A stretch of 64,000 bases of DNA. It comes from Ensifer sesbaniae (GTDB taxonomy: Bacteria; Pseudomonadota; Alphaproteobacteria; Rhizobiales; Rhizobiaceae). The position numbers and the translations under genes are program-made. The DNA is taken from contig NZ_JABEKU010000001.1 in assembly GCF_013283665.1 (NCBI RefSeq), positions 2,843,594 to 2,907,593 on the forward strand, written 5' to 3'. This document shows, in pieces, positions 51,332 to 63,340 of the stretch. The notes beneath the pieces are model-generated. The model searched no databases and was not told the DNA's origin. It saw only the letters and a program-made list of their open reading frames with translations. Position 1 is the stretch's first letter. Each line of letters opens with the position of its first letter.

Positions 51332-51624
51332 GGTCAGCGCCAAGCGGTCAGGCAAAGACCGGATCAGGCCGACACGCCTTGCAATCGGAAGGCACTATTC
51401 GCTTGGGCAAACCTGATGCCCACCGCTCACGCGACGCATTCAATTCGCATTCTTGAGTTTCCAACACCCAGATTGGGAAATAGAGGCGGTCGTGGTGACG
51501 GACAAAAAGTGGTGGGCCCGGAGGTCGCGCCATAACTCCTGAAAATCAATGAGTTAGAGTAAAGTGGGACCGGAAATCTTTCCGCCCGCTCTTGTAGTTT
51601 TTCGCCACTAAAGTCCCACCGCCC

Positions 51625-51681: not shown

Positions 51682-51930
51682 ATGCGCGTCTTGTATTGCC
51701 ACAAGGTCAAAGACACGCGCCGGCAGGATTGCCTGGCATCGGTTGATTTCGAGATCAATCCGCACATTCGTCTTTACGGCCTGAGGCTTCTAAAGAAGCC
51801 CGACGGCGCCTTCTACATCTATGCGCCGCAAGCCAACGGCTCCCGTCGCTTGGCGACCTTCTCGCCTGAGCTTTCAGCACGCCTCACCGCTCTTGCCGTC
51901 GAATCGTACGAGGCAGCCAATGAGCGATGA
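51682..51930 (+). CDS. Prophage protein of unknown function
   Basis: 82 residues. Beta-rich middle HIRLYGLRLLKKPDGAFYIY followed by APQANGSRRLATFSPELSAR and a terminal helix. Similar short proteins precede replication genes in rhizobial prophages; the 'R-L-Y-x-x-R-L ... F-S-P-E-L' layout is recognisable but has no assigned function. AAGGAGAA precedes the ATG, and the end overlaps the next gene by 11 bp. Confidence 0.65.
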   Translation: MRVLYCHKVKDTRRQDCLASVDFEINPHIRLYGLRLLKKPDGAFYIYAPQANGSRRLATFSPELSARLTALAVESYEAANER

Positions 51931-53107
51931 CAAGCCGCGTCTTCCAAAGCCCGAGAGCCTCGAGGCGAAGTTCAAACTGATGACGCTGCTGCCGTACGAC
52001 AAGCGAGCCAAGCGCAAACACTGCCTCGTGTTCGGCTTCGTCTGTGACTGGTACCACTCCGACTACGGCAATGCGCTCGCCAGCGTTCGGCATATCGTCG
52101 CGACAATCAAAGAGCGCGATCCGGCAGGCATCGGCCTCTACACCGGCGATGTACATAGCGCCCTCGCCGATCTGGTATCGTGGGGATACCTCACGCAGAT
52201 CAAAGGGACCGGCCGCAAGGCCAGCCGCTATATCCCCGCATGGGATTTGGTTTGTGTTCATAAAACTCCGAACACAACAGCGACCGAAACTAGCATTCGG
52301 GGAAATCCGAACACAGATGTTCGGGAAAATCCGAACACAAATGGCGATAGCGTTCATAAAATGCAGAACGAAGACCCATCCACAGTACCCGTCCACGGGA
52401 CCGGGGTACATGTGGTGGGAAATATGTTCGAAGCCGCGCCGGTGGCGCCGCCTTTGGCTGGCCTTCCGGCCGCCACGGCGGGACCGGCTTCGGGAGATGG
52501 ATTCAGTGAGTTCTGGAGCGCCTGGCCCCGAAAGCACGGCAAGAAGGCGGCCGAGGCAGAGTGGCGGAAGATCGGCGCAGACCTGCGCGCCACGGTCATT
52601 AACGCAGCCGGTGTGTGGGCTGACCACTACGCCAAGCACGGCGTCGAGAAGAAGTGGATCCCCGAGCCAGCGAACTGGCTGAAGGGGGAGCGCTGGGACG
52701 AAGACTTGCCATTGATCCATGGGGACGCGAAGGGCGCCGCAATCGCCAAGGCTAAGGCCAACGCGCCGGCGAAGAAAGAAGACAAGCCACGCTGGCCGCG
52801 GGTGGTCGATATCGTCGGCAGCGGCGTCGACAACGACGGAGACTTCAGAACTAAGCTCAAGTTGGTGTTTTGTGAGCGCGACCAGCCGAAAACATGGGAA
52901 CACGTAATCACCATCGAGCATCCCAATACGGACATTCAGCGGGACGGCCAGCGCGAGTTTGGCGCCCTTTGCAGCGCCCTCGGATTGGTCGGCGTCAACG
53001 ACTCCAGCGAGCTTGAGAACCACGCCGTTGAGATCATGCCCGGGAATAAGGGCGCGCTGGAATACCGCCCCGCGCCGGCGAACGACAACATGGAGGCTGC
53101 GGCCTGA
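51920..53107 (+). CDS. Putative phage replication protein
   Basis: 395 residues. The N-terminal 100 residues look like a winged-helix DNA-binding domain (VCDWYHSDYGNALASVRHIV; DVHSALADLVSWGYLTQIKG). A linker is followed by FSEFWSAWPRKHGKKAAEAE and KKWIPEPANWLKGERWDED, a block common in phage replication-initiation or helicase-loader proteins. The C-terminal 100 residues (LKLVFCERDQPKTWEHVITI; FGALCSALGLVGV) resemble single-strand-annealing or DUF669-type proteins, so it may be a fusion. The linker repeats the unit NPNT(D/N) around residues 130-145. It overlaps the next gene by 1 bp. Confidence 0.7.
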   Translation: MSDDKPRLPKPESLEAKFKLMTLLPYDKRAKRKHCLVFGFVCDWYHSDYGNALASVRHIVATIKERDPAGIGLYTGDVHSALADLVSWGYLTQIKGTGRKASRYIPAWDLVCVHKTPNTTATETSIRGNPNTDVRENPNTNGDSVHKMQNEDPSTVPVHGTGVHVVGNMFEAAPVAPPLAGLPAATAGPASGDGFSEFWSAWPRKHGKKAAEAEWRKIGADLRATVINAAGVWADHYAKHGVEKKWIPEPANWLKGERWDEDLPLIHGDAKGAAIAKAKANAPAKKEDKPRWPRVVDIVGSGVDNDGDFRTKLKLVFCERDQPKTWEHVITIEHPNTDIQRDGQREFGALCSALGLVGVNDSSELENHAVEIMPGNKGALEYRPAPANDNMEAAA

Positions 53108-54668: not shown

Positions 54669-55436
54669 GTGACATCATTGGAACATGCCAACGATAACGT
54701 GCCGGTATTTGACCGGGGCGACGCGCTGCCTTGCATCGTAGAAGATGCAACCGAGTGGCAACCGTCCCGCACCCGCATCAAGGGGCCCGGCTTAGCGGTT
54801 AAACTTGCAAACGACGGGCCGTCTCTTGAGCGGCGTATCGCGCTGCATGCCGTGTGGGCATCCTCGAACCGCTACAGCGGGCAGCACGCCAACGATAATA
54901 GCGACTGGCCGCTGGCCAAGCTCCTGCGAACCGAAAAAAACGATCACTGCCTGGCCCTGGCTGAGAGATATCGCGCCCTGCATGATGCGGCGACCTTGCC
55001 GACGCAACTCGTTGGTCGGGAAGCCGTGGATTTGTACGTCGTGCACAATGTCGATGAAGATGGCAAGAACAAGGGTCAGAAAGTAGTCACTGGCAGGAGG
55101 GCCAACATCGACACGCCCGCGACTCGTGCAACCATCACCAACGACGAGACCAAGAAACGCGCCGCTCCTATCCCGAAGAAGTGGCAGGGCGACTGGCCTC
55201 TCCTCGCCAGCATCGATGCGAAGCGTGAGCTTGCTGTCCTGCGGTATAGGCTCGCGTATGTGCCGAAGATCCTGGATGCCTTCGAGTGGGCGGTCGTGGA
55301 TGGTCTTACGCTCACCGAGATCGGCGCAGGGCTTGGCGCGGGCAGCAAGGGGGCCAAGGGCGAAGCCCGGGCTAGAATCTTTGACGGTTTCGGAATCATC
55401 GATCGCTTCTGGCGGAATAGCCAGCGAGCCGCATAG
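54669..55436 (+). CDS. Prophage protein of unknown function, possible HTH
   Basis: 255 residues from a GTG at 54669; a TTG at 54678 fits the AAAAGG site better and would remove three residues. The N-terminus repeats an HANDN motif (EHANDNVPVFD; GQHANDNSDW), also seen at the end of the replication protein (PANDNMEAAA) and common in rhizobial phage genes. The C-terminal third (AFEWAVVDGLTLTEIGAGLG; GEARARIFDGFGIIDRFW) looks like a helix-turn-helix, suggesting a late gene regulator or small DNA-binding protein. A terminator follows at 55478. Confidence 0.6.
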   Translation: MTSLEHANDNVPVFDRGDALPCIVEDATEWQPSRTRIKGPGLAVKLANDGPSLERRIALHAVWASSNRYSGQHANDNSDWPLAKLLRTEKNDHCLALAERYRALHDAATLPTQLVGREAVDLYVVHNVDEDGKNKGQKVVTGRRANIDTPATRATITNDETKKRAAPIPKKWQGDWPLLASIDAKRELAVLRYRLAYVPKILDAFEWAVVDGLTLTEIGAGLGAGSKGAKGEARARIFDGFGIIDRFWRNSQRAA

Positions 55437-55477
55437 AGGTACCCCATTTTCAAATCCCAAAGGCTAAGGGAGAGAGA

Positions 55478-55501
55478 GGGCGCTGGAAACGGCGCCCTTT
55501 T
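55478..55501 (+). terminator. Rho-independent terminator after the HTH-like gene
   Basis: GGGCGC (55478-55483) and GCGCCC (55492-55497) form a stem with loop TGGAAACG, followed by TTTTCGTTT. It ends the transcript of the gene at 54669-55436. Confidence 0.75.
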
Positions 55502-55626
55502 CGTTTGGGGAAGCTGTCACCTTCCCCTGGTGGGTGGCCGCGCGCGGTCGCTCACCGCCCCGTTGCTGCACCTCGGATGGACAGGGCGGCAAACCGATCC
55601 GGCTTCATCTCCATGTGCCGGACTTT

Positions 55627-55669
55627 AGGGCTGGAGCGCGAGTTGATGCGCGCTCCAGCCCTTTCTTTT
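55627..55669 (+). terminator. Strong rho-independent terminator
   Basis: AGGGCTGGAGCGCG (55627-55640) and CGCGCTCCAGCCCT (55649-55662) form a perfect 14-bp stem with loop AGTTGATG, followed by TTCTTTT. It separates the early region from the structural genes; with the terminator at 55478 it shields the next operon. The 200 bp between 55502 and 55711 hold no gene that I can support. Confidence 0.85.
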
Positions 55670-55711
55670 CGGACCATCCAAACGCAACTTTTAAAAATTA
55701 CAGGAGGCCAC

Positions 55712-56242
55712 GTGGCCAATTTAAACGCAGCCGTTGCCGCGCTGGAGCGCCGCATTGGCTTCCCTAAATCGCGCGCTCGGCAGGTGGCGCGCTCGCTGCA
55801 GGAGGCCGGCGCATTGCCGCTTGGTGCCCCCGGCGTCGCGCCCAAACTGGATCTTGACGACTTCGTTACGCTCGTCATTGCGCTCGCAGCAGACGTGCCC
55901 TTGCACCAGTCAGCAGACGCGGTGCGCACCTACCGTCAACTTACTCCTGGCGGCGCTGACGTATCTCGCGCACCCGCATCGGTGCCGAAGAACGCAGGTG
56001 AGGAGATCGACGCGATTTTCAGCCTGGCCGCCGACGGCAACACAGATGTCCGCGGCGTCAAGCTCGAGTTCGTAGCCAATTGGCCTGAAGTCGCCGTGCA
56101 TTGGCACGATGGGAGCATCGGCCGCTTTCGCGAGCTCGGCGCTCTTGGCGCTCATTGGAGCTCGATCGGCCACCGGCGCTCGACGAGCATCAACGTGGCT
56201 GCCCTTGCCGACGCTATCAAAGAAACTTTCACAGGAGCCTGA
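55712..56242 (+). CDS. Prophage protein of unknown function
   Basis: 176 residues from a GTG at 55712, chosen for its perfect AGGAGG 4 bp upstream; in-frame upstream codons lie within the terminator and are untranslated. The N-terminal 80 residues are helical (LNAAVAALERRIGFPKSRAR, QVARSLQEAGALPLG, VTLVIALAADVPLHQSADAV) like phage DNA-packaging or HTH adaptor proteins, and the C-terminal half is beta-rich (VRGVKLEFVANWPEVAVHWH). No family named. Two bp before the next gene. Confidence 0.65.
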   Translation: MANLNAAVAALERRIGFPKSRARQVARSLQEAGALPLGAPGVAPKLDLDDFVTLVIALAADVPLHQSADAVRTYRQLTPGGADVSRAPASVPKNAGEEIDAIFSLAADGNTDVRGVKLEFVANWPEVAVHWHDGSIGRFRELGALGAHWSSIGHRRSTSINVAALADAIKETFTGA

Positions 56243-56244
56243 GA

Positions 56245-56826
56245 ATGGTTTTCAAGAAATCACCGACCGCCACCGAGACCTTCCGCGTGCCGAGCCTTGG
56301 CGAAGTCGATCAAGACTACCGAGAGATCGAGCAGAAGATTGCTGGCCTGCGCAACGACCAGTCGACAACGGCTCGCGAAATTCTCGAGTTGGAGCATGAC
56401 TTGCGAGCGCGGCAAGCCCCCTCCATGCGTTCCGGCGTCGCGGCTCTGCTTGGAGAAGTCGTCGACATCACCTTGGAGCAGCGGCCTGCGCGATTGGCAG
56501 AACTCCGCAAGCATGCTGGTGATATCGAGGGCGCGATTGAAATCCTCCAGCGCCGACTCTCCGAACGCCGCGATCGAGCCAGCGCCGCTGTCCGCGCTGC
56601 GGCCAAGGCTGAGTATGGCCGCCGCGTGAAGGCAGTTGCCGAAGCGCTACAGCAAGCAAATGCAGCCCACCTGGAACTGATCGACATCGTCGACCAATTC
56701 GAGCGTGAGGGCGTCTCTTGGAGTGCACTCGGCCCAATGCAGCCGAACTTCCTGGGGAGCGCATACGACGGCCACGTCCAGCGCTACATCAAGGAAGCTA
56801 AGGAGGCTGGCTACTATGGCAATTGA
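56245..56826 (+). CDS. Prophage coiled-coil protein
   Basis: 193 residues, mostly helical with strong heptad pattern from residues 20 to 140 (YREIEQKIAGLRNDQSTTAR; ELEHDLRARQ; ARLAELRKHAGDIEGAIEIL). Probably a structural or scaffold-like phage protein, judging by its position just before the prohead protease. AGGAG precedes ATG 56245. It overlaps the next small gene by 11 bp. Confidence 0.65.
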   Translation: MVFKKSPTATETFRVPSLGEVDQDYREIEQKIAGLRNDQSTTAREILELEHDLRARQAPSMRSGVAALLGEVVDITLEQRPARLAELRKHAGDIEGAIEILQRRLSERRDRASAAVRAAAKAEYGRRVKAVAEALQQANAAHLELIDIVDQFEREGVSWSALGPMQPNFLGSAYDGHVQRYIKEAKEAGYYGN

Positions 56827-56995
56827 ACGCGCCACCAAGAAGACCACCAAGGCAACGCGTAGCGTGACCCTCCCTGGCAAGCGGGCCGCCCACATGACCA
56901 CCGACCCAGTCGACATCGCCCGCGAACTGCGGGCCAAATCTCGCCTGGGACAACGCGAGGCAAAGCTGGCTGCGGCGGAGGAAAAGCTGAAGTGA
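56816..56995 (+). CDS. Small basic prophage protein
   Basis: 59 residues, Lys/Arg/Ala-rich (MAIERATKKTTKATRSVTLP; LRAKSRLGQREAKLAAAEEK). AAGGAGG lies 10 bp before the ATG, and its stop overlaps the GTG of the protease gene (GTGA), so it is clearly translated. No family known; it could be a DNA- or head-associated peptide. Confidence 0.65.
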   Translation: MAIERATKKTTKATRSVTLPGKRAAHMTTDPVDIARELRAKSRLGQREAKLAAAEEKLK

Positions 56996-57510
56996 CGGAG
57001 AAAATCAGCGGCTATGCGGCTACGTTCTCCGCGCCAACCGTTATCGCCGGTGAGTTTCGCGAGCAGTTGGCGCCAGGCTGCTTCGCGCGCACCCTGAAAG
57101 AGAACCCCGACGTTCTTGCCATACTCGATCATGACTTCGGCCGTATCCTTGGTCGCACAACGGCCGGCACGCTTGAGCTAAAGGAGGACCGCATCGGGCT
57201 ATGGTTCAGCCTGCTGCCTGATCCTACAACTCCAAGCGGTCAGGAAGCGATAGGCACGGTGCGCCGTGGCGACGTCAAGGGATGCAGCTTCTCATTCCGA
57301 GTGCGGGCTGAGCGATGGGAGGACGGTGGCGATCGACTGCCCCTTCGCATCCTCGAAGACGTGGACCTGTACGAGGTGACGCTCACTGCGGTACCGGCCT
57401 ACCCAACCACTACGGCCAGCCTGTGCGTCGAAGGCCCGGACACCACAGCGTCAGCGCTGCGAGTAAGGGCCGAGGCCGCGATGAAAGCCCGCGGCATCCC
57501 ACTCGTCTGA
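56992..57510 (+). CDS. HK97-family prohead protease (peptidase S78)
   Basis: 172 residues from a GTG. Family features: ISGYAATFSAPTVIAGEFRE at the start, catalytic His in AILDHDFGRILGRT, catalytic Ser in VKGCSFSFRV, and LRILEDVDLYEVTLTAVPAY near the end. The enzyme cleaves scaffold and capsid in prohead maturation. In intact phages a major capsid gene follows; here the next gene is a small terminase, so capsid and portal are lost or elsewhere. Confidence 0.9.
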   Translation: MTEKISGYAATFSAPTVIAGEFREQLAPGCFARTLKENPDVLAILDHDFGRILGRTTAGTLELKEDRIGLWFSLLPDPTTPSGQEAIGTVRRGDVKGCSFSFRVRAERWEDGGDRLPLRILEDVDLYEVTLTAVPAYPTTTASLCVEGPDTTASALRVRAEAAMKARGIPLV

Positions 57511-57676: not shown

Positions 57677-58018
57677 GTGGCAAAATCACCAAAACCGCCG
57701 CCGCACCTGCGGCCAGCTACGCAGAAATGGTGGCGATCTGTGCTCGGGGAATTCGAGCTCCATGGCCATCACGTGCGCCTGCTTCAACTGGCCGCCGAAG
57801 CGTGGGATCAGGCACAGGGTGCTCGCGAGGTTCTTGATCGAGACGGTCAGACTTTCACCGACCGGTTTGGACAACCCAAGGAGCGGCCTGAAGTCGGAAT
57901 CATGCAAAACGCTCGCATCGCCTTCGCGAGGTTGCTGCGCGAACTCGCCCTTGACGGCGTCGATGCTCCAGAAGCCCCGCGTGCTCCGCGTACCGCCGAT
58001 TACGGAAGCCGGCGCTGA
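57677..58018 (+). CDS. Phage terminase small subunit, P27-like
   Basis: 113 residues from a GTG with GGAG upstream. P27-family pattern: PPPHLRPATQKWWRSVLGEF, ELHGHHVRLLQLAAEAWDQA, GQTFTDRFGQPKERPEVGIM, and ARIAFARLLRELALDG. It recognises phage DNA for packaging with a large terminase, whose gene is not in the window. Its stop overlaps the next ATG. The 166 bp before it show no gene. Confidence 0.85.
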   Translation: MAKSPKPPPHLRPATQKWWRSVLGEFELHGHHVRLLQLAAEAWDQAQGAREVLDRDGQTFTDRFGQPKERPEVGIMQNARIAFARLLRELALDGVDAPEAPRAPRTADYGSRR

Positions 58019-58293
58019 TGCCTGTTCGATATCGCAAGAACAGGAAGCGCTCTACGGATGGTCTCAACGAATGGGAGGCTGTCTTTTCGACAGGCTACGA
58101 TCTGCTTTGGGAGTTGCAGATGTCAGGTGTCGAGACGGATGAATATGGTCAGCCCCCGCTGGATGTTACAGAGGCCGCATGGCGACGGCTAGGCGAGGCC
58201 TATATGGATCTCCCGCGGCATCCGGACCTCGACGAGCCGTGGGCACTCCAAACCTTTGGAACTCCATGGTCAAGGCGAAGATCAAAAAGGTAG
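58018..58293 (+). CDS. Prophage protein of unknown function
   Basis: 91 residues, Trp-rich (NEWEAVFSTGYDLLWELQMS; VTEAAWRRLGEAYMDL; DEPWALQTFGTPW). It is coupled to the terminase by an ATG/TGA overlap, a position usually held by small DNA-packaging partners. Its last 12 bp overlap the 3' end of the opposite membrane gene. Confidence 0.6.
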   Translation: MPVRYRKNRKRSTDGLNEWEAVFSTGYDLLWELQMSGVETDEYGQPPLDVTEAAWRRLGEAYMDLPRHPDLDEPWALQTFGTPWSRRRSKR

Positions 58294-59133
58294 ACCATGT
58301 TTTCTGGTGGGCTCCCAGATTTGATCGCTTTCAAGGTCGTACCGCTCAATCAGCTCGTCTCGGATCTGGTGTAGGCCCGTCAGAAAGAGTGCTGCCGATA
58401 TCTCGCGGCGAACAATGTGCAACGGTACATCGTTAGTCGCGCCTCTGGCGAATGCAAACAAGGCAGAAGCGCGTGCGTATATTTCGGCCTCGCCAAGTAT
58501 TAACGCCTCAACATTATGCGCATGCACCCAGGCTTCGGGTCGACTGTGGTCGTTGCTTAACCCGCCAAGTTTTGAGGCTTGGAGTTGGATGGAGATAATA
58601 AGACGAGAGTAATATTTGCGCTCGAACTCAGTGCTGAACTCCACCATTTCCTTCAAGTTTGAAAGCACGTCCGCAGAATAGCTATCGAATTTTGGCAAAA
58701 CCGCAATCTTCGGTAGAAAATTATCCTGACATTGGCCAAGAACTTCTAACAAAGCCTGGCTTCGTTGCCTAGCAGTCTCGCCCAGCACTCCGAGCGATAG
58801 CGGCAGAACCGCCCTTGCAGCAGCCCTTTTCGCCTCGCGCCGTTCCCGTTCATGCCGTTCCACTTGGGCAAGTTGCAGTTTAGTGGAACTGCGAGATTGA
58901 AGCACCTGCAGCTTTATTGCCCTCAGTGTCCAGTAGGCAGCTCCCAGTGCGACAAGTGCACCTATGAACGTCTGGTAGTCGTACAGCCACTTGAACCGGC
59001 CTAACCATCCCACGACACCATCAAAGGTGCCCACCCATCCGAGGTCGCAGCCCATACGGACGGCCTCTATGCAAACCGCGAGGATGAAGATGCCAGCAGC
59101 TATGCCGACGAGGAAGTGTTGTCTGTAGGTCAT
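58282..59133 (-). CDS. Accessory membrane protein inserted on the opposite strand
   Basis: 283 residues. Two N-terminal membrane helices (FLVGIAAGIFILAVCIEAVR; FIGALVALGAAYWTLRAI) are followed by a basic coiled-coil stretch (STKLQLAQVERHERERREAK) and a helical cytosolic domain. No family is recognised. It is the only minus-strand gene in the packaging/tail region and looks like a cargo ('moron') gene with its own promoter; lysogenic conversion or phage exclusion roles are possible but not shown. Confidence 0.6.
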   Translation of the reverse strand: MTYRQHFLVGIAAGIFILAVCIEAVRMGCDLGWVGTFDGVVGWLGRFKWLYDYQTFIGALVALGAAYWTLRAIKLQVLQSRSSTKLQLAQVERHERERREAKRAAARAVLPLSLGVLGETARQRSQALLEVLGQCQDNFLPKIAVLPKFDSYSADVLSNLKEMVEFSTEFERKYYSRLIISIQLQASKLGGLSNDHSRPEAWVHAHNVEALILGEAEIYARASALFAFARGATNDVPLHIVRREISAALFLTGLHQIRDELIERYDLESDQIWEPTRKHGLPF

Positions 59134-59222: not shown

Positions 59223-59270
59223 ATGACTAAACGAACGAACGCCACTTGTGGGCGGGCGGTGGAGGCCTGA
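59223..59270 (+). other. 15-codon frame upstream of the tape measure gene, possible deletion scar
   Basis: ATGACTAAACGAACGAACGC starts a frame of 15 codons (MTKRTNATCGRAVEA) with AAGGAAA upstream, ending in a stop that overlaps the ATG of the tape measure gene. Such coupling normally belongs to a full-length tail gene. The short frame may be the joined start and end of that gene after an internal deletion. Confidence 0.4.
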
Positions 59271-61216
59271 TGGTTGAAAAGACCGACGATCTTGTAATTT
59301 CCATCAGCACCGACCTTGCTACGGTGAAAAGGAGCCTGAAGCGGCTCGAGCAAGACATTTCGTCGACCACCGGCAAGGTTCAGAAGCAATTCGACGGTCT
59401 GGGCAAGGGCATCGACAACTCGATGACGACTGCGCTGCAGGCTCGCGTCGACAAGATGGTCGGGATCGGCTCGAAGGGCGCCAAGGAATGGACCGGCGCA
59501 CTCGCTGATCAGGGCAAGGAGCTTGAGCGCCTGCGCGCCAAGTACAGCCCGCTTTTTGCGACCATAAACAATTACAAGTCGGCAGTTGCCGACATTCGCC
59601 GCGCGCATGCGGTTGGTGCGATCTCGGCCAACGAGATGACCTCCGCCATCCAGCGAGAGCGGCAGGCGGCCTTGGCGTCGACTGCGGCGATCAAGGGGCG
59701 GAACGCTGCGCTGGCCCAGACACCCGCCCGCGGTCAAATGGGCCAGGGCTTCCAGACCGCCAACATCGCCGCCCAGTTCCAAGATATTGCCGTCACGTCG
59801 GCGATGGGCATGAACCCGCTGCAGATCGCTTTGCAACAGGGCACGCAGCTTTCGTCGGTACTCAATACGATGGGCAACGGACGTCAGGTCGTCAGCGGCC
59901 TCGCTGCGGCGTTCACCTCGCTGGTGAGCCCTGTTTCGCTGCTCACCATTGGTCTCGTTGCCGGTGGCGCGGCCGCCATCCAGTATTTCAGCACCATGGA
60001 GTGGGGCGGGTCGAAGTCAGAGGAAACTCTGAAGCGTGAAGCCGAGCTCGTGAACACGGTGGCCGAGAAATGGGGCGACGTCCTTCCTGCTCTGAAGGCC
60101 TATAACGACGAGAGGCAAAGGCTCGCCGGCGACAAGGAGCGCACTGAGGCACTAGGGATTGGCGCGAGTGCGCAGTGGGACGAACTCAGGGCCAAGCTCG
60201 ATGACATCAACGTCGAATTCACGCGCCTCAAGACAGATATTCAGCAAAGCAGCGACAACGTCGCAGGAATTGTCGCGCTTCAACAGGCGTTCAACGATCT
60301 CCAGGCAAGAATTGCCAGCGGTAGCGCCACGGCCGCGGATGCCAAGAAGGTTCAAGACTCGCTCGTTAGCTTTATCGCGGAGACAGGCAATCCGGCAATC
60401 TCCGACTTCGCCACGCAATTCGACGGCCTGGCAAATTCCATCGATCGAGCGTCGGCGAATGCCAAAAAGTTCGCGATAGACCAAGCGATAGCGCTGACGT
60501 CGCGGCACCCGAGCCAAGGCGCGTATGGCGGTGTCCTTCGGAGCGCTGACGGCACGATCCAAGGTGGTGGCACGGTACTGCCCGACAACGGTCCAGTTCC
60601 AGAGCGCAGGCCGCTCATCGAGCTCGACGGCTTACCGGGCGCCCAAGAAGCAACGAAGAAGACAGAAACAGCCGCCAGCCGAGCCGCAAACGCCTACCGC
60701 GATCTGGTCAAGAGCGCTGACGATCGCATTGCGCAACTGAGGCTGGAAACGGAACTTACCGGCCAGTACGGAATCCAAACGGATGCCGCGCGCTTCCGGC
60801 TCGAACTACTTCAGCAGGCGGAGGACAAGGGGCGCTCCCTTTCCGAGGCCCAGCGCGCCGAAATCGAGCAGAAGGTTGCGCTATACGAGAAGTACTCGCA
60901 GGCGCTTTCTCAAGCGAAGTTGCAGCAGGATTTGGTGAACCAGGCGCGCTTCAGTTCGCTTTCTCAACAAGACCAGAAGATTGTCCAAACACTGCGGCAG
61001 TACGGTTTGCCGGAGGATCTCGGTGGCAAGAATGCTCAGAGCATTCGGCAATCGTTGCAGTTCCAGGAAATGAGCGACGGCGTGTCTGGCTTCTTCAGCA
61101 CATTCAAAGACGCGTTGATTCAAAACGGCGGCGATCTCGGTGATGCATTCGCGAGCGCCATCGCCGACGCCCTAGTGGGTGACGGCTTCACAATGACCAT
61201 GGAGTTCCCACAATGA
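59270..61216 (+). CDS. Phage tail tape measure protein
   Basis: 648 residues from ATG 59270, with GGAGG 4 bp upstream. N-terminal tape-measure region (DDLVISISTDLATVKRSLKR; QTANIAAQFQDIAVTSAMGM; LQIALQQGTQLSSVLNTMGN, the typical phage tail-length motif), a hydrophobic segment near residue 225 (SLLTIGLVAGGAAAIQYF), then long helical and coiled-coil parts (AANAYRDLVKSADDRIAQLR). It spans the tail tube and sets tail length. At 648 residues it would give a short siphovirus tail. It overlaps the next gene by ATGA. Confidence 0.88.
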   Translation: MVEKTDDLVISISTDLATVKRSLKRLEQDISSTTGKVQKQFDGLGKGIDNSMTTALQARVDKMVGIGSKGAKEWTGALADQGKELERLRAKYSPLFATINNYKSAVADIRRAHAVGAISANEMTSAIQRERQAALASTAAIKGRNAALAQTPARGQMGQGFQTANIAAQFQDIAVTSAMGMNPLQIALQQGTQLSSVLNTMGNGRQVVSGLAAAFTSLVSPVSLLTIGLVAGGAAAIQYFSTMEWGGSKSEETLKREAELVNTVAEKWGDVLPALKAYNDERQRLAGDKERTEALGIGASAQWDELRAKLDDINVEFTRLKTDIQQSSDNVAGIVALQQAFNDLQARIASGSATAADAKKVQDSLVSFIAETGNPAISDFATQFDGLANSIDRASANAKKFAIDQAIALTSRHPSQGAYGGVLRSADGTIQGGGTVLPDNGPVPERRPLIELDGLPGAQEATKKTETAASRAANAYRDLVKSADDRIAQLRLETELTGQYGIQTDAARFRLELLQQAEDKGRSLSEAQRAEIEQKVALYEKYSQALSQAKLQQDLVNQARFSSLSQQDQKIVQTLRQYGLPEDLGGKNAQSIRQSLQFQEMSDGVSGFFSTFKDALIQNGGDLGDAFASAIADALVGDGFTMTMEFPQ

Positions 61217-61881
61217 GTGCAATCCTCTCGCTCGCCGGCCCTGACACGGTGTACCTTCTCACCGACGGCGCCGGGTATGATTCCGACGGCGTGGTTAGGT
61301 GCATCGGGCGCAAAGTTCGCATTGCATCGAAAGCGCGCTTGGCTGTGGCAACACGTGGCTTTAAAGGCATCGGGGATCTCTGGGCTGAAAAGCTTACCGC
61401 GCTGGCTGATAGGGTCGGCGTGGATGACATGCTCCTCGCCCTCCCTTTGATCCTTGCCGAAATGGAGCTTGAGCCGCGATCGATCCAGCGAGAGCAGCCA
61501 GTCGAGGTCGTGCTCGCCGGGTGGTCGCCAGCAATTGGCGCTTTCCATCGCATGTTCCGCACCTACGGCGAAAACGCCTTCGAACTCACATCGCCCGCGG
61601 CTCTCTTCTACGGCGGCCAGATGTCGAACGATCCGCGCACTTTTTTGCTACCGCCGTTGCCAGGCGAAGGCGCCGAAGCATGGATGCGTCGAGGGGGGCT
61701 GGCCGTCATGCAAGCCTGCCGTTCGCAGCTTGGCCGGAACCCTTCTGGAGATGTCGGCTTCTTGTGCATCGGCGGCCAAATCGACCTGACGACGATTTCC
61801 GCCGACCGCGTGACGGTCGAGACTATCCACACGTGGCCCGACCGCATCGGCGAGAAGATCGTTCCGGAGTTGGCCGCGTGA
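61213..61881 (+). CDS. Proteasome/HslV-like Ntn-hydrolase-fold prophage protein, Ser1 type
   Basis: 222 residues. Alignment by eye with proteasome beta/HslV: after Met removal the chain starts SAILSLAGPDTVYLLTDGAG, placing Ser1 and Asp17 exactly at active-site positions, and Lys33 in IGRKVRI. Then RLAVATRG matches the family's strand and VEVVLAGWSPAIGAFHRMF the 'V-D-x-L-I-A-G' core strand. Ser1 instead of Thr1 still gives an active nucleophile in engineered proteasomes. The protein lies between tape measure and a second paralogue. Peptidase activity, a self-assembled chamber or a structural role are all possible; I can support only the fold. Confidence 0.6.
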   Translation: MSAILSLAGPDTVYLLTDGAGYDSDGVVRCIGRKVRIASKARLAVATRGFKGIGDLWAEKLTALADRVGVDDMLLALPLILAEMELEPRSIQREQPVEVVLAGWSPAIGAFHRMFRTYGENAFELTSPAALFYGGQMSNDPRTFLLPPLPGEGAEAWMRRGGLAVMQACRSQLGRNPSGDVGFLCIGGQIDLTTISADRVTVETIHTWPDRIGEKIVPELAA

Positions 61882-62078
61882 GAACGCGCTACATCGCCAA
61901 CAACCTGGCGTGCACGACGTCTCTATATGGTCCCATCACCTACGACCCAATCTTCACGCCGCTGTTCACCGCGGTTTTGGGGCCCGGTATCGCCATTGGT
62001 GCCACCGGCATCACTACCACCAGCATCGCCGCCGCGATTGCGACCACAGGCCTTTCGAAGGGAGTCCAAATCCGATGA
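61878..62078 (+). CDS. Small hydrophobic prophage tail-region protein
   Basis: 66 residues from a GTG that overlaps the upstream stop (GTGA) and ending in a TGA that overlaps the next ATG. A Gly/Ala/Thr/Ile-rich middle (AVLGPGIAIGATGITTTSIA) suggests a membrane or tail-tip segment, like the short proteins found after tape measure genes in other rhizobial prophages. No function assigned. Confidence 0.6.
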   Translation: MRTRYIANNLACTTSLYGPITYDPIFTPLFTAVLGPGIAIGATGITTTSIAAAIATTGLSKGVQIR

Positions 62079-62656
62079 CTGCGATCAATGTTCTCCGGCT
62101 CGACGGCAGCGTCACCATCATCACCGACACCCGCGCACGCTCTCACGCGGGACCGGACTTCGACGCTCCGAAGGTGATGCCCATCCCGCATATGCGGCTG
62201 GCCATCGCCACCCGCGGCAAGATGGACGTACTTACGAAGGTAGTCGGCGCCGTTTGCGTGGCGGCTCGAGATTACGATAGCGCGAGGGATTTCCTTCGGG
62301 AGCACTTTGAAGGTCTGGGGTTGGGCCCGGTCGATATCTTTCTAGCCGGATGGAGCAAGGAAGGGCCAGCCGCCTGCATAATCTCGAGCGTCAACGGCAA
62401 TGCCGACATACCGTATATCGCGGCCACACCGATGGTGCCTGGCGAGGTTCTGGAGGCGTTCGGTGCGGATCCTGTGGCGAACATGCCGGCGCTGCTACAG
62501 GCGCAGCATGCGGCGAACAGCGCGGTCGGCGGCTACATCAATGTGACCACCGTATGGGCCGATCGGATCGAAAGCTATACGGCCGGGGCTATTGAGGAAG
62601 TGCGGAGGGCGGTGGTTGCACCAGTGTCCCGCAACTTAACTTGTGATATGGCGTGA
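62075..62656 (+). CDS. Proteasome/HslV-like Ntn-hydrolase-fold prophage protein, Thr1 type
   Basis: 193 residues, close to HslV in size. The N-terminus MTAINVLRLDGSVTIITDTR matches the HslV start (mature TTIVSVRR-NG-HVVIAGDGQ): Thr2 becomes Thr1, and Asp is at mature position 17. Lys32 (APKVMPI) is where HslV and the proteasome have Lys33. Further family strands: RLAIATRGKMDVLTKVVGAV and VDIFLAGWSKEGPAACIISS. It is a paralogue of 61213-61881, sharing LA-ATRG, AGWS and W-DRI-(E/S) near the end. Translation is coupled to the 66-residue gene. Activity is inferred from geometry only. Confidence 0.62.
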   Translation: MTAINVLRLDGSVTIITDTRARSHAGPDFDAPKVMPIPHMRLAIATRGKMDVLTKVVGAVCVAARDYDSARDFLREHFEGLGLGPVDIFLAGWSKEGPAACIISSVNGNADIPYIAATPMVPGEVLEAFGADPVANMPALLQAQHAANSAVGGYINVTTVWADRIESYTAGAIEEVRRAVVAPVSRNLTCDMA

Positions 62657-62683: not shown

Positions 62684-63340
62684 TTGGATACGCTTCTTAA
62701 GATGCCGATTGAGTTCCAGATCGTCTTGGTCGCGGGCTACATCGCGTATAAAATTGTCACCGTCGGGCGAAACAGAAATCACAGGACAGAGGATTTTCTG
62801 CTTCAAGTCCTTACGTTTGGTCTTATCGCTCGTGCAGTCGTAGCGACGGCATTCTGGGTTCCAAACACGATACCCAAGAACGACTCGATCAATGCTGCGC
62901 TCGTCGCAGGATTGACAGTGATGGTCGCCATCGGACTCGGAGCAGCTTGGCGAGCGTTCGGAGAACGCTGTTCTCACTCATTGATGAAGACGTTGCGTGT
63001 GTATCGAGACGATCACGAAGCATCTGTCTGGCAAAGCATTATGCATAATCCGGCTGAGTGGACGGTGCTGCAAGTTCATTTGGACGACGGCACAGTACTC
63101 GAAGCCAACTTCGGACAGATGAAGCCCCGCCCGAAGACTGCAGTCTTCATGAACGAGGATGGGATCGGCTTGTACGTGACCGGAAGATACGACGCCGAGA
63201 ACAATTTTGCGGCATTTGATATTACTGGCAATGACGCCGACGTCACGCTGACCTATATCCCGCGGGCCTCGGTCAAACGAGTAGACGTAAACTGGAGGCT
63301 TCCGCCGGCCCAAATCAAGCGCGAATTTCCTATCTCTTAG
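62684..63340 (+). CDS. Membrane protein of unknown function, DUF6338-like
   Basis: 218 residues from a TTG at 62684 (GAGGGGAA upstream); ATG 62702 is an alternative. Three membrane helices in the first 95 residues (FQIVLVAGYIAYKIVTVG; LLQVLTFGLIARAVVATAFW; ALVAGLTVMVAIGLGAAW), then a cytosolic beta domain with VLQVHLDDGTVLEANFGQMK and TLTYIPRASVKRVDVNW. This layout resembles DUF6338 membrane proteins. Its position after tail genes suggests accessory cargo. Confidence 0.6.
   Translation: MDTLLKMPIEFQIVLVAGYIAYKIVTVGRNRNHRTEDFLLQVLTFGLIARAVVATAFWVPNTIPKNDSINAALVAGLTVMVAIGLGAAWRAFGERCSHSLMKTLRVYRDDHEASVWQSIMHNPAEWTVLQVHLDDGTVLEANFGQMKPRPKTAVFMNEDGIGLYVTGRYDAENNFAAFDITGNDADVTLTYIPRASVKRVDVNWRLPPAQIKREFPIS

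Follow-up and report, generated by a model that had tools for sequence, protein, structure and literature searches.

A pair of genes directly behind a tape-measure gene, in an integrated element of Ensifer sesbaniae, encodes two proteins (P0001 and P0002) that are predicted to be N-terminal nucleophile (Ntn) hydrolases of the proteasome superfamily. Both genes lie in the window, by which we mean the whole stretch of 64,000 nucleotides that was analysed (contig NZ_JABEKU010000001.1, positions 2,843,594 to 2,907,593). In the reading that we favour, though tentatively, both enzymes have an intact predicted catalytic centre and perform limited cleavage of a virion protein made together with them, as part of tail work.

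Catalytic residues and predicted fold

P0001 (61213..61881, plus strand; 222 residues, starting MSAILSL) and P0002 (62075..62656, plus strand; 193 residues, starting MTAINVL) share 26% identity (E-value 4e-5 in BLASTP, for that one comparison only), which bears out the paralogy proposed in a preliminary description of this DNA. A likeness by chance was considered and rejected. Counting on the translations gives Ser1, Asp17 and Lys33 for P0001 and Thr1, Asp17 and Lys32 for P0002, as that description had it, and both proteins contain the RLA(V/I)ATRG and LAGWS blocks that it had named.

The same residues recur across the family. All 35 non-redundant members have Ser (20) or Thr (15) directly behind the start residue, which is beyond chance, since Ser or Thr stands at residue 2 in 65 of the 307 other called genes of at least 100 residues in these loci. 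The Asp17 and Lys33 columns and a later Gly column (186) are invariant (35/35 each), and Gly48 is kept in 34/35; these positions are alignment columns, and the actual residue number differs in a few members that have small insertions (the Lys is residue 32 in P0002). Positions 1, 17 and 33 thus do not vary freely among homologues; free variation would have spoken against the preliminary description. By eye, the sole Gly48 change seems to belong to L077, which does not lie in a phage module. Members are 193 to 313 residues long (n = 35) with a mean column identity of 22%, and since the catalytic columns are near-invariant amid this divergence, the alignment indicates that the proteasome centre has been retained while most else diverged.

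Starts were placed from the profile and not independently (33 ATG, with TTG in L068 and GTG in L073). The set of 35 excludes L049 (cut by a contig end), L058 and L059 (fragments), L076 (a broken copy), L043 (a near-copy of L078), loci repeating one place, and L095 to L099, which were found later. Among the later finds, L095, L098 and L099 fit the residue rule by eye, with the Lys at 34 in L099. L095 and L096 (a partial frame) of genome G865 and L099 of genome G603 start with MSILNV and carry Asp17 and Lys33/34; judging by sequence, they are perhaps a further branch. Genome G865 has only its phylum in common with the genome of the window.

AlphaFold2 predicted the proteasome-type Ntn fold expected in the preliminary description, and no other fold, for both proteins: confidently for P0001 (predicted local distance difference test, pLDDT, 87.3; predicted template modelling score, pTM, 0.87; 15 sequences) and more weakly for P0002 (pLDDT 76.2; pTM 0.72). 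All 50 Foldseek matches listed for P0001 in the PDB were proteasome subunits (E-values 2.4e-8 to 2.2e-7), and so were all 50 listed for P0002 (best E-value 1.3e-7). The best structural matches of both models were beta subunits of the 20S proteasome, which differ from our proteins in sequence (10-18% identity in the matches listed), in having a propeptide and in their complete pair of helices H3 and H4. A viral structure library gave an uncharacterised phage protein as its best match (E-value 8.5e-6).

Profile comparisons also lead to the proteasome. Beta chains made up 22 of the 25 PDB matches listed for the 35-member profile (the others being AlgU regulators and UvrD1), in register with the mature chains: residue 2 on Thr1, Asp on Asp17, Lys on Lys33 and a C-terminal GG on GG. 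In the search of 299 genomes, the family profile picked out BPH with an E-value of 4.8e-4 for its genome, a value that is not overwhelming because that many genomes were searched. The protein so found matches PF00227 (E-value 1.9e-9) and the BPH of PDB 5ovu (E-value 3.9e-115). BPH (PDB 5ovu, 5ovs) has the same start and Asp17 as the family, and one report names a BPH in phage RXM (PMC8953757).

Membership in HslV, to which the preliminary description had likened the pair, was not supported. Two HslV chains are among the weak matches of a 21-member profile, in register over residues 1-42 (E-values 0.64 and 0.70), but the NCBIfam scan of the 21 members contained no HslV model and gave two chance matches only. 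P0001 and P0002 reached chance-level matches only in Pfam and PHROG (for P0002, LcrG at E-value 0.12 and phrog_35990 at 0.39). Eight of the 21 members match phrog_13702 (best E-value 9e-46). This profile of 218 positions, which goes under 'terminase large subunit' and also has matches in a Bacillus subtilis control, is probably mislabelled.

Fuchs, Alva and Lupas (2021) described 22 proteasome homologues, including PPH and AAH in phages and RPC and DPH in Proteobacteria only, and saw no genomic context that hinted at a function (PMC8665760). PPH, RPC, DPH and AAH resemble the members described here in their proteasome-like fold, Ser/Thr1-Asp17-Lys33, Gly47, and the lack of a propeptide and of a known unfoldase. 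PPH has about 140 residues and lacks helix H2 (PMC8665760), whereas the members here are longer throughout and the model of P0001 places two helices (51-68 and 70-86) at the sites of H1 and H2. Length and helix content thus set the branch apart from PPH. The comparison covered PPH, and the branch may be identical with RPC, DPH or AAH among the 22 published homologues.

Coupling to the tape-measure gene

The tape-measure gene of the window (59246..61216, plus strand; 656 residues counted from the first TTG) is called by PF06791 (E-value 1.1e-10) and phrog_8892 (E-value 1.1e-94). It is followed by P0001, by a hydrophobic 66-residue gene with a GTG start and a DPIFTP motif (61878..62078, plus strand), and by P0002. 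All three junctions are 4-base stop/start overlaps (ATGA, GTGA and ATGA), and the arrangement given in the preliminary description is thereby confirmed on the coordinates. When stop and start codons overlap, the two products are usually made in linked amounts. The tape-measure gene, P0001 and P0002 have similar G+C at each codon position (0.63-0.65 / 0.45-0.49 / 0.72). Neither a propeptide nor an unfoldase gene was seen beside the pair. Just before the tape-measure gene lies an open reading frame (ORF) of 283 residues on the minus strand (58282-59133), with no Pfam or PHROG match.

The preliminary description had suggested looking beside tape-measure genes elsewhere, and such a gene indeed adjoins many relatives. 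In 19 of the 35 members, the Ntn gene begins where a tape-measure gene ends or overlaps that end. Sixteen of these were recognised by a tape-measure profile, with a tape-measure-like ORF ending between -11 and +3 of the Ntn start, a count that is partly circular because the profile was built from the same loci. The others are L070, by library scan, and L072 and L073, by annotation, with overlaps of 74 bases and 4 bases with the annotated tape measure. Library scans independently back the tape measures of the window and of L070. Literature searches, judged by titles and abstract openings, listed no paper on the coupling of a tape-measure gene with one for a proteasome-like protein. According to PMC8665760, the context of PPH, RPC, DPH and AAH is untelling, whereas many members here show this coupling.

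The small hydrophobic gene also has counterparts. Nine of the 35 members follow a hydrophobic gene of 30-79 residues by a 4-base overlap. The best 19-residue Kyte-Doolittle mean of these genes is 1.57-1.96, and it is at least 1.6 in 8/9 of them versus 11/170 other short ORFs. DP-I-(F/I)-TP is present in 4/9, and the DPIFTP motif of the window's 66-residue gene recurs in short genes upstream of three relatives. Five of the nine (P0002, L040b, L047, L050 and L052) have a tape-measure-like ORF no further than ~2.4 kb away, that of L050 being weak (E-value 4.2e-8), and for L048 and L057 none was found. The last two of the nine, L053 and L054, start 229 bases from a contig end, and the short gene upstream of them resembles a signal-bearing membrane protein.

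The contexts of the remaining seven members vary. The protein to which L035 is coupled resembles internal virion proteins (phrog_2206, E-value 4.8e-6). L041 has a short hydrophilic gene before it and a tape-measure-like ORF after it. L071 overlaps an ORF without a name, and its plasmid carries an annotated tape measure at another place. For L042, L056, L077 and L078, no tape measure was found. A C-terminal strand motif of tape-measure proteins, seen by eye in several of them, was considered as a cleavage tag and rejected; we claim no such motif because the same bases carry the ribosome-binding site.

The pair as a fixed unit was not supported: two close copies occur in two elements only, that of the window and that of L040 in genome G154, in which one copy lies upstream of the tape measure and one directly after it. 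In the tree, the nearest relative of P0002 is L057 (support 100/97), and P0001, which has no settled place, does not fall beside P0002. The pair is therefore not a recent duplication, and a recent tandem origin was ruled out on these placements.

The integrated element and the spread of the family

A 15-base repeat of the 3' end of tRNA-Met (51510..51524) is the probable left end of an element of ~15.7 kb. The tRNA-Met lies 15,704 bases beyond this repeat, past the end of the window, and an integrase gene overlaps it (PF00589, E-value 3.6e-13). G+C is lower inside the element (0.55-0.62) than in the left flank (0.64-0.67). In genome G009, of the same genus, the matching flanks are 181 bases apart, versus ~15.9 kb here. 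The gap between the flanks is 2 to 49 kb in five other genomes (G001, G002, G008, G010 and G011), so other DNA occupies the site there.

The element contains a replication initiation-like gene (51821..53107, plus strand; phrog_270, E-value 3e-14, scanned from 51923). A prohead (head maturation) protease of 172 residues (56992..57510, plus strand; PF04586, E-value 1.9e-41; phrog_80, E-value 2.3e-42) also matches families labelled as major head proteins, e.g., phrog_2263 (E-value 4.5e-19). A gene like the small terminase subunit follows (57677..58018, plus strand; PF05119, E-value 8.5e-7; phrog_83, E-value 3.1e-8). Behind the pair, a DUF6338-like gene of the same element (62684..63340, plus strand; PF19865, E-value 2.3e-6; phrog_12870, E-value 3.6e-21) starts 27 bases past P0002. 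The genes scanned also include a DNA-binding protein, a helix-turn-helix protein and the integrase. Among them, no capsid, portal, large-terminase or tail-tube gene was found beyond the head-family matches of the protease. No HslU-like gene was found among the element genes scanned either, as the preliminary description had noted; the host's own HslU was not looked for. The tape measure is 55% identical to the first ~655 of the 1065 residues of that of Rhizobium phage RHph_Y3_1. The element is either satellite-like or decayed. Three successive ORFs in it (54669-56826; 255, 245 and ~225 residues) have no PHROG match and no Pfam match above the cut-off.

Relatives of the pair were recovered by several routes. 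P0001 as a query led to one viral contig, and P0002 led to 6 of 201 relative genomes, its own included. Three weak places among the latter (L005, L006 and L007) were dropped, as the profile did not confirm them. Profile searches gave matches in 17 of 397 genomes at the level of the order, in 4 of 289 at that of the class and in 7 of 299 at that of the phylum; these counts include the window's own genome, some matches are fragments, no more than 7 to 9 candidates were scored per genome, and one of the seven matches in the phylum is BPH, a non-member. With phrog_13702 as a probe, 2 of the 289 class genomes matched. Pattern searches added IMG/VR contigs as well as Neorhizobium huautlense, Devosia sp. 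Root436, Methylobacterium gnaphalii, Hansschlegelia zhihuaiae and metagenome-assembled genomes of Methylobacteriaceae and Sphingomonas, and one of them (A6) took 208 stretches and yielded one relative. Further members are on plasmids of Bradyrhizobium, Methylobacterium, Methylorubrum and Rhizobium. Occurrence in isolated tailed phages, which marks PPH, was not seen: seven members compared by tblastn with 50,697 phage records gave no match at E-values up to 1. Broken copies also occur elsewhere (L058, L059 and L076). Alphaproteobacterial prophages, phage-plasmids and small integrated elements are the main home of the family.

Small circular plasmids of the Methylobacterium group (L071, L072 and L073) combine an annotated tape measure with an Ntn gene. 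On p3META1 (24.9 kb), pAMS5c (20.5 kb) and pVL1_6 (31.5 kb) nothing else bears the name of a phage structural gene, though many genes there are unnamed and were not scanned. Plasmid pB146-3 (16.1 kb) carries portal, terminases, connectors, tape measure and the Ntn gene.

Possible roles of the enzymes

We propose, tentatively, that these enzymes would act as follows. Removal of the start methionine is expected when Ser or Thr comes next, and it would bare Ser/Thr1, which would form the centre together with Asp17, Lys33 and Gly47/48 at the oxyanion position. The enzyme, which often shares its message with the tape-measure protein, may then make limited, site-specific cuts in (or transpeptidate) a virion protein produced along with it, the tape measure being the first candidate, during tail assembly or ejection. 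P0002, the second copy, may act on the small hydrophobic protein whose gene overlaps its own, or be anchored by it. The tape measure of phage lambda undergoes processing. Since the enzyme is made with the tape measure and has no propeptide or unfoldase, a dedicated enzyme with few substrates fits better than bulk proteolysis. Methionine removal, catalysis, substrate and role are what we infer here. A bolder version, which we think rather unlikely, would make the family a further, tape-measure-linked proteasome branch that serves phages and satellite-like elements as a dedicated tail-morphogenesis protease or ligase on the tape measure, with tape measure and enzyme retained in some small elements and plasmids as a minimal unit for reprogramming the tails of a helper phage.

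Several results weigh against cleavage in tail work. Regarding the fold, the model of P0002 is weak at 108-126, 144-146 and 182-188, and the TM-scores of P0001, taken by query length, fall in a middle range (0.47-0.68 in the 50 Foldseek matches listed). The solved-structure matches of the profile are weak singly, with a best E-value of 0.056. BPH differs from the members in matching PF00227, to which none of the 21 members scanned has a match, and the family has no Pfam match. The direct hhalign comparison of the family with BPH, which begins at residue 1, has a probability of 37.5 only. Regarding context, the tape-measure count is partly circular, as said above, and no tape measure was found in the stretches fetched for L042, L048, L056, L057, L077 and L078. 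L077 (Bradyrhizobium sp. 155 plasmid p155_1, 9001-9678) sits among bacterial genes, beside a cold-shock gene, and was possibly taken over by its host. The isolated phages RHph_Y3_1, RHph_N28_2, phiLM21 and phi3LM21, which have related tape measures, show no Ntn gene in the stretches fetched, so tape measures in general do not need one.

An alternative that we regard as unlikely, though worth keeping in view, is that the enzymes work inside the host, either entering with the tape measure or being produced early, and cleave proteins of the host or of rival phages. Counter-defence, exclusion of other phages and satellite-like interference with a helper phage are variants of it. It would suit the element of the window, in which no capsid, portal or large-terminase gene could be recognised among the genes scanned, and the small plasmids on which the annotated tape measure and the Ntn gene stand without another named phage structural gene, as well as the signal-bearing look of the gene before L053 and L054. 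Against it, the tape-measure coupling in 19/35 members points to virion assembly.

The preliminary description had pictured a pair of self-compartmentalising hydrolases, perhaps mixed. As a general protease of this kind, one or both proteins would form a ring, perhaps with the host's HslU, and degrade proteins during infection. The proteasome-type fold and centre agree with this, and the best known members of the superfamily are rings. According to PMC8665760, however, the pair of helices H3 and H4 makes the main contacts between the two beta rings. The P0001 model has a 4-residue turn at 141-144 and one long helix at 154-170 in place of that pair, and the P0002 model, with helices at 50-63, 67-77 and 139-147, has only the last. 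With one helix of the pair missing or reduced in both monomer models, a stacked double ring is not supported by them. Most loci also have a single copy, and no HslU-like gene is seen beside the pair. We consider such a ring protease improbable.

It is likewise improbable that the copies in the window are what is left of a decaying, formerly larger prophage and have ceased to matter. The absence of capsid, portal and large-terminase genes from those scanned, a tape measure that spans only the first part of its RHph_Y3_1 counterpart, and broken copies elsewhere would be in line with decay. The reading frames are open, though, with three 4-base overlaps and all catalytic residues kept; the integrase frame is open, the ends of the element match, and other small elements with an Ntn gene recur.

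Least probable is a structural tail or assembly protein that keeps the fold with an unused active site, since in spite of the place in the tail module and the strong divergence of the family, the best-kept positions are catalytic ones that a scaffold would not need, and the sole Gly48 change seems to fall outside a phage module.

Proteasome homologues of phages have so far been without a function or a telling context, and a branch in which coupling to the tape-measure gene is frequent offers a concrete and testable role. If our proposal is true, a proteasome-type enzyme would take part in virus assembly and would be a candidate for the processing of tape measures. The findings also point to small elements and plasmids that bear a tape measure without a recognisable tail.

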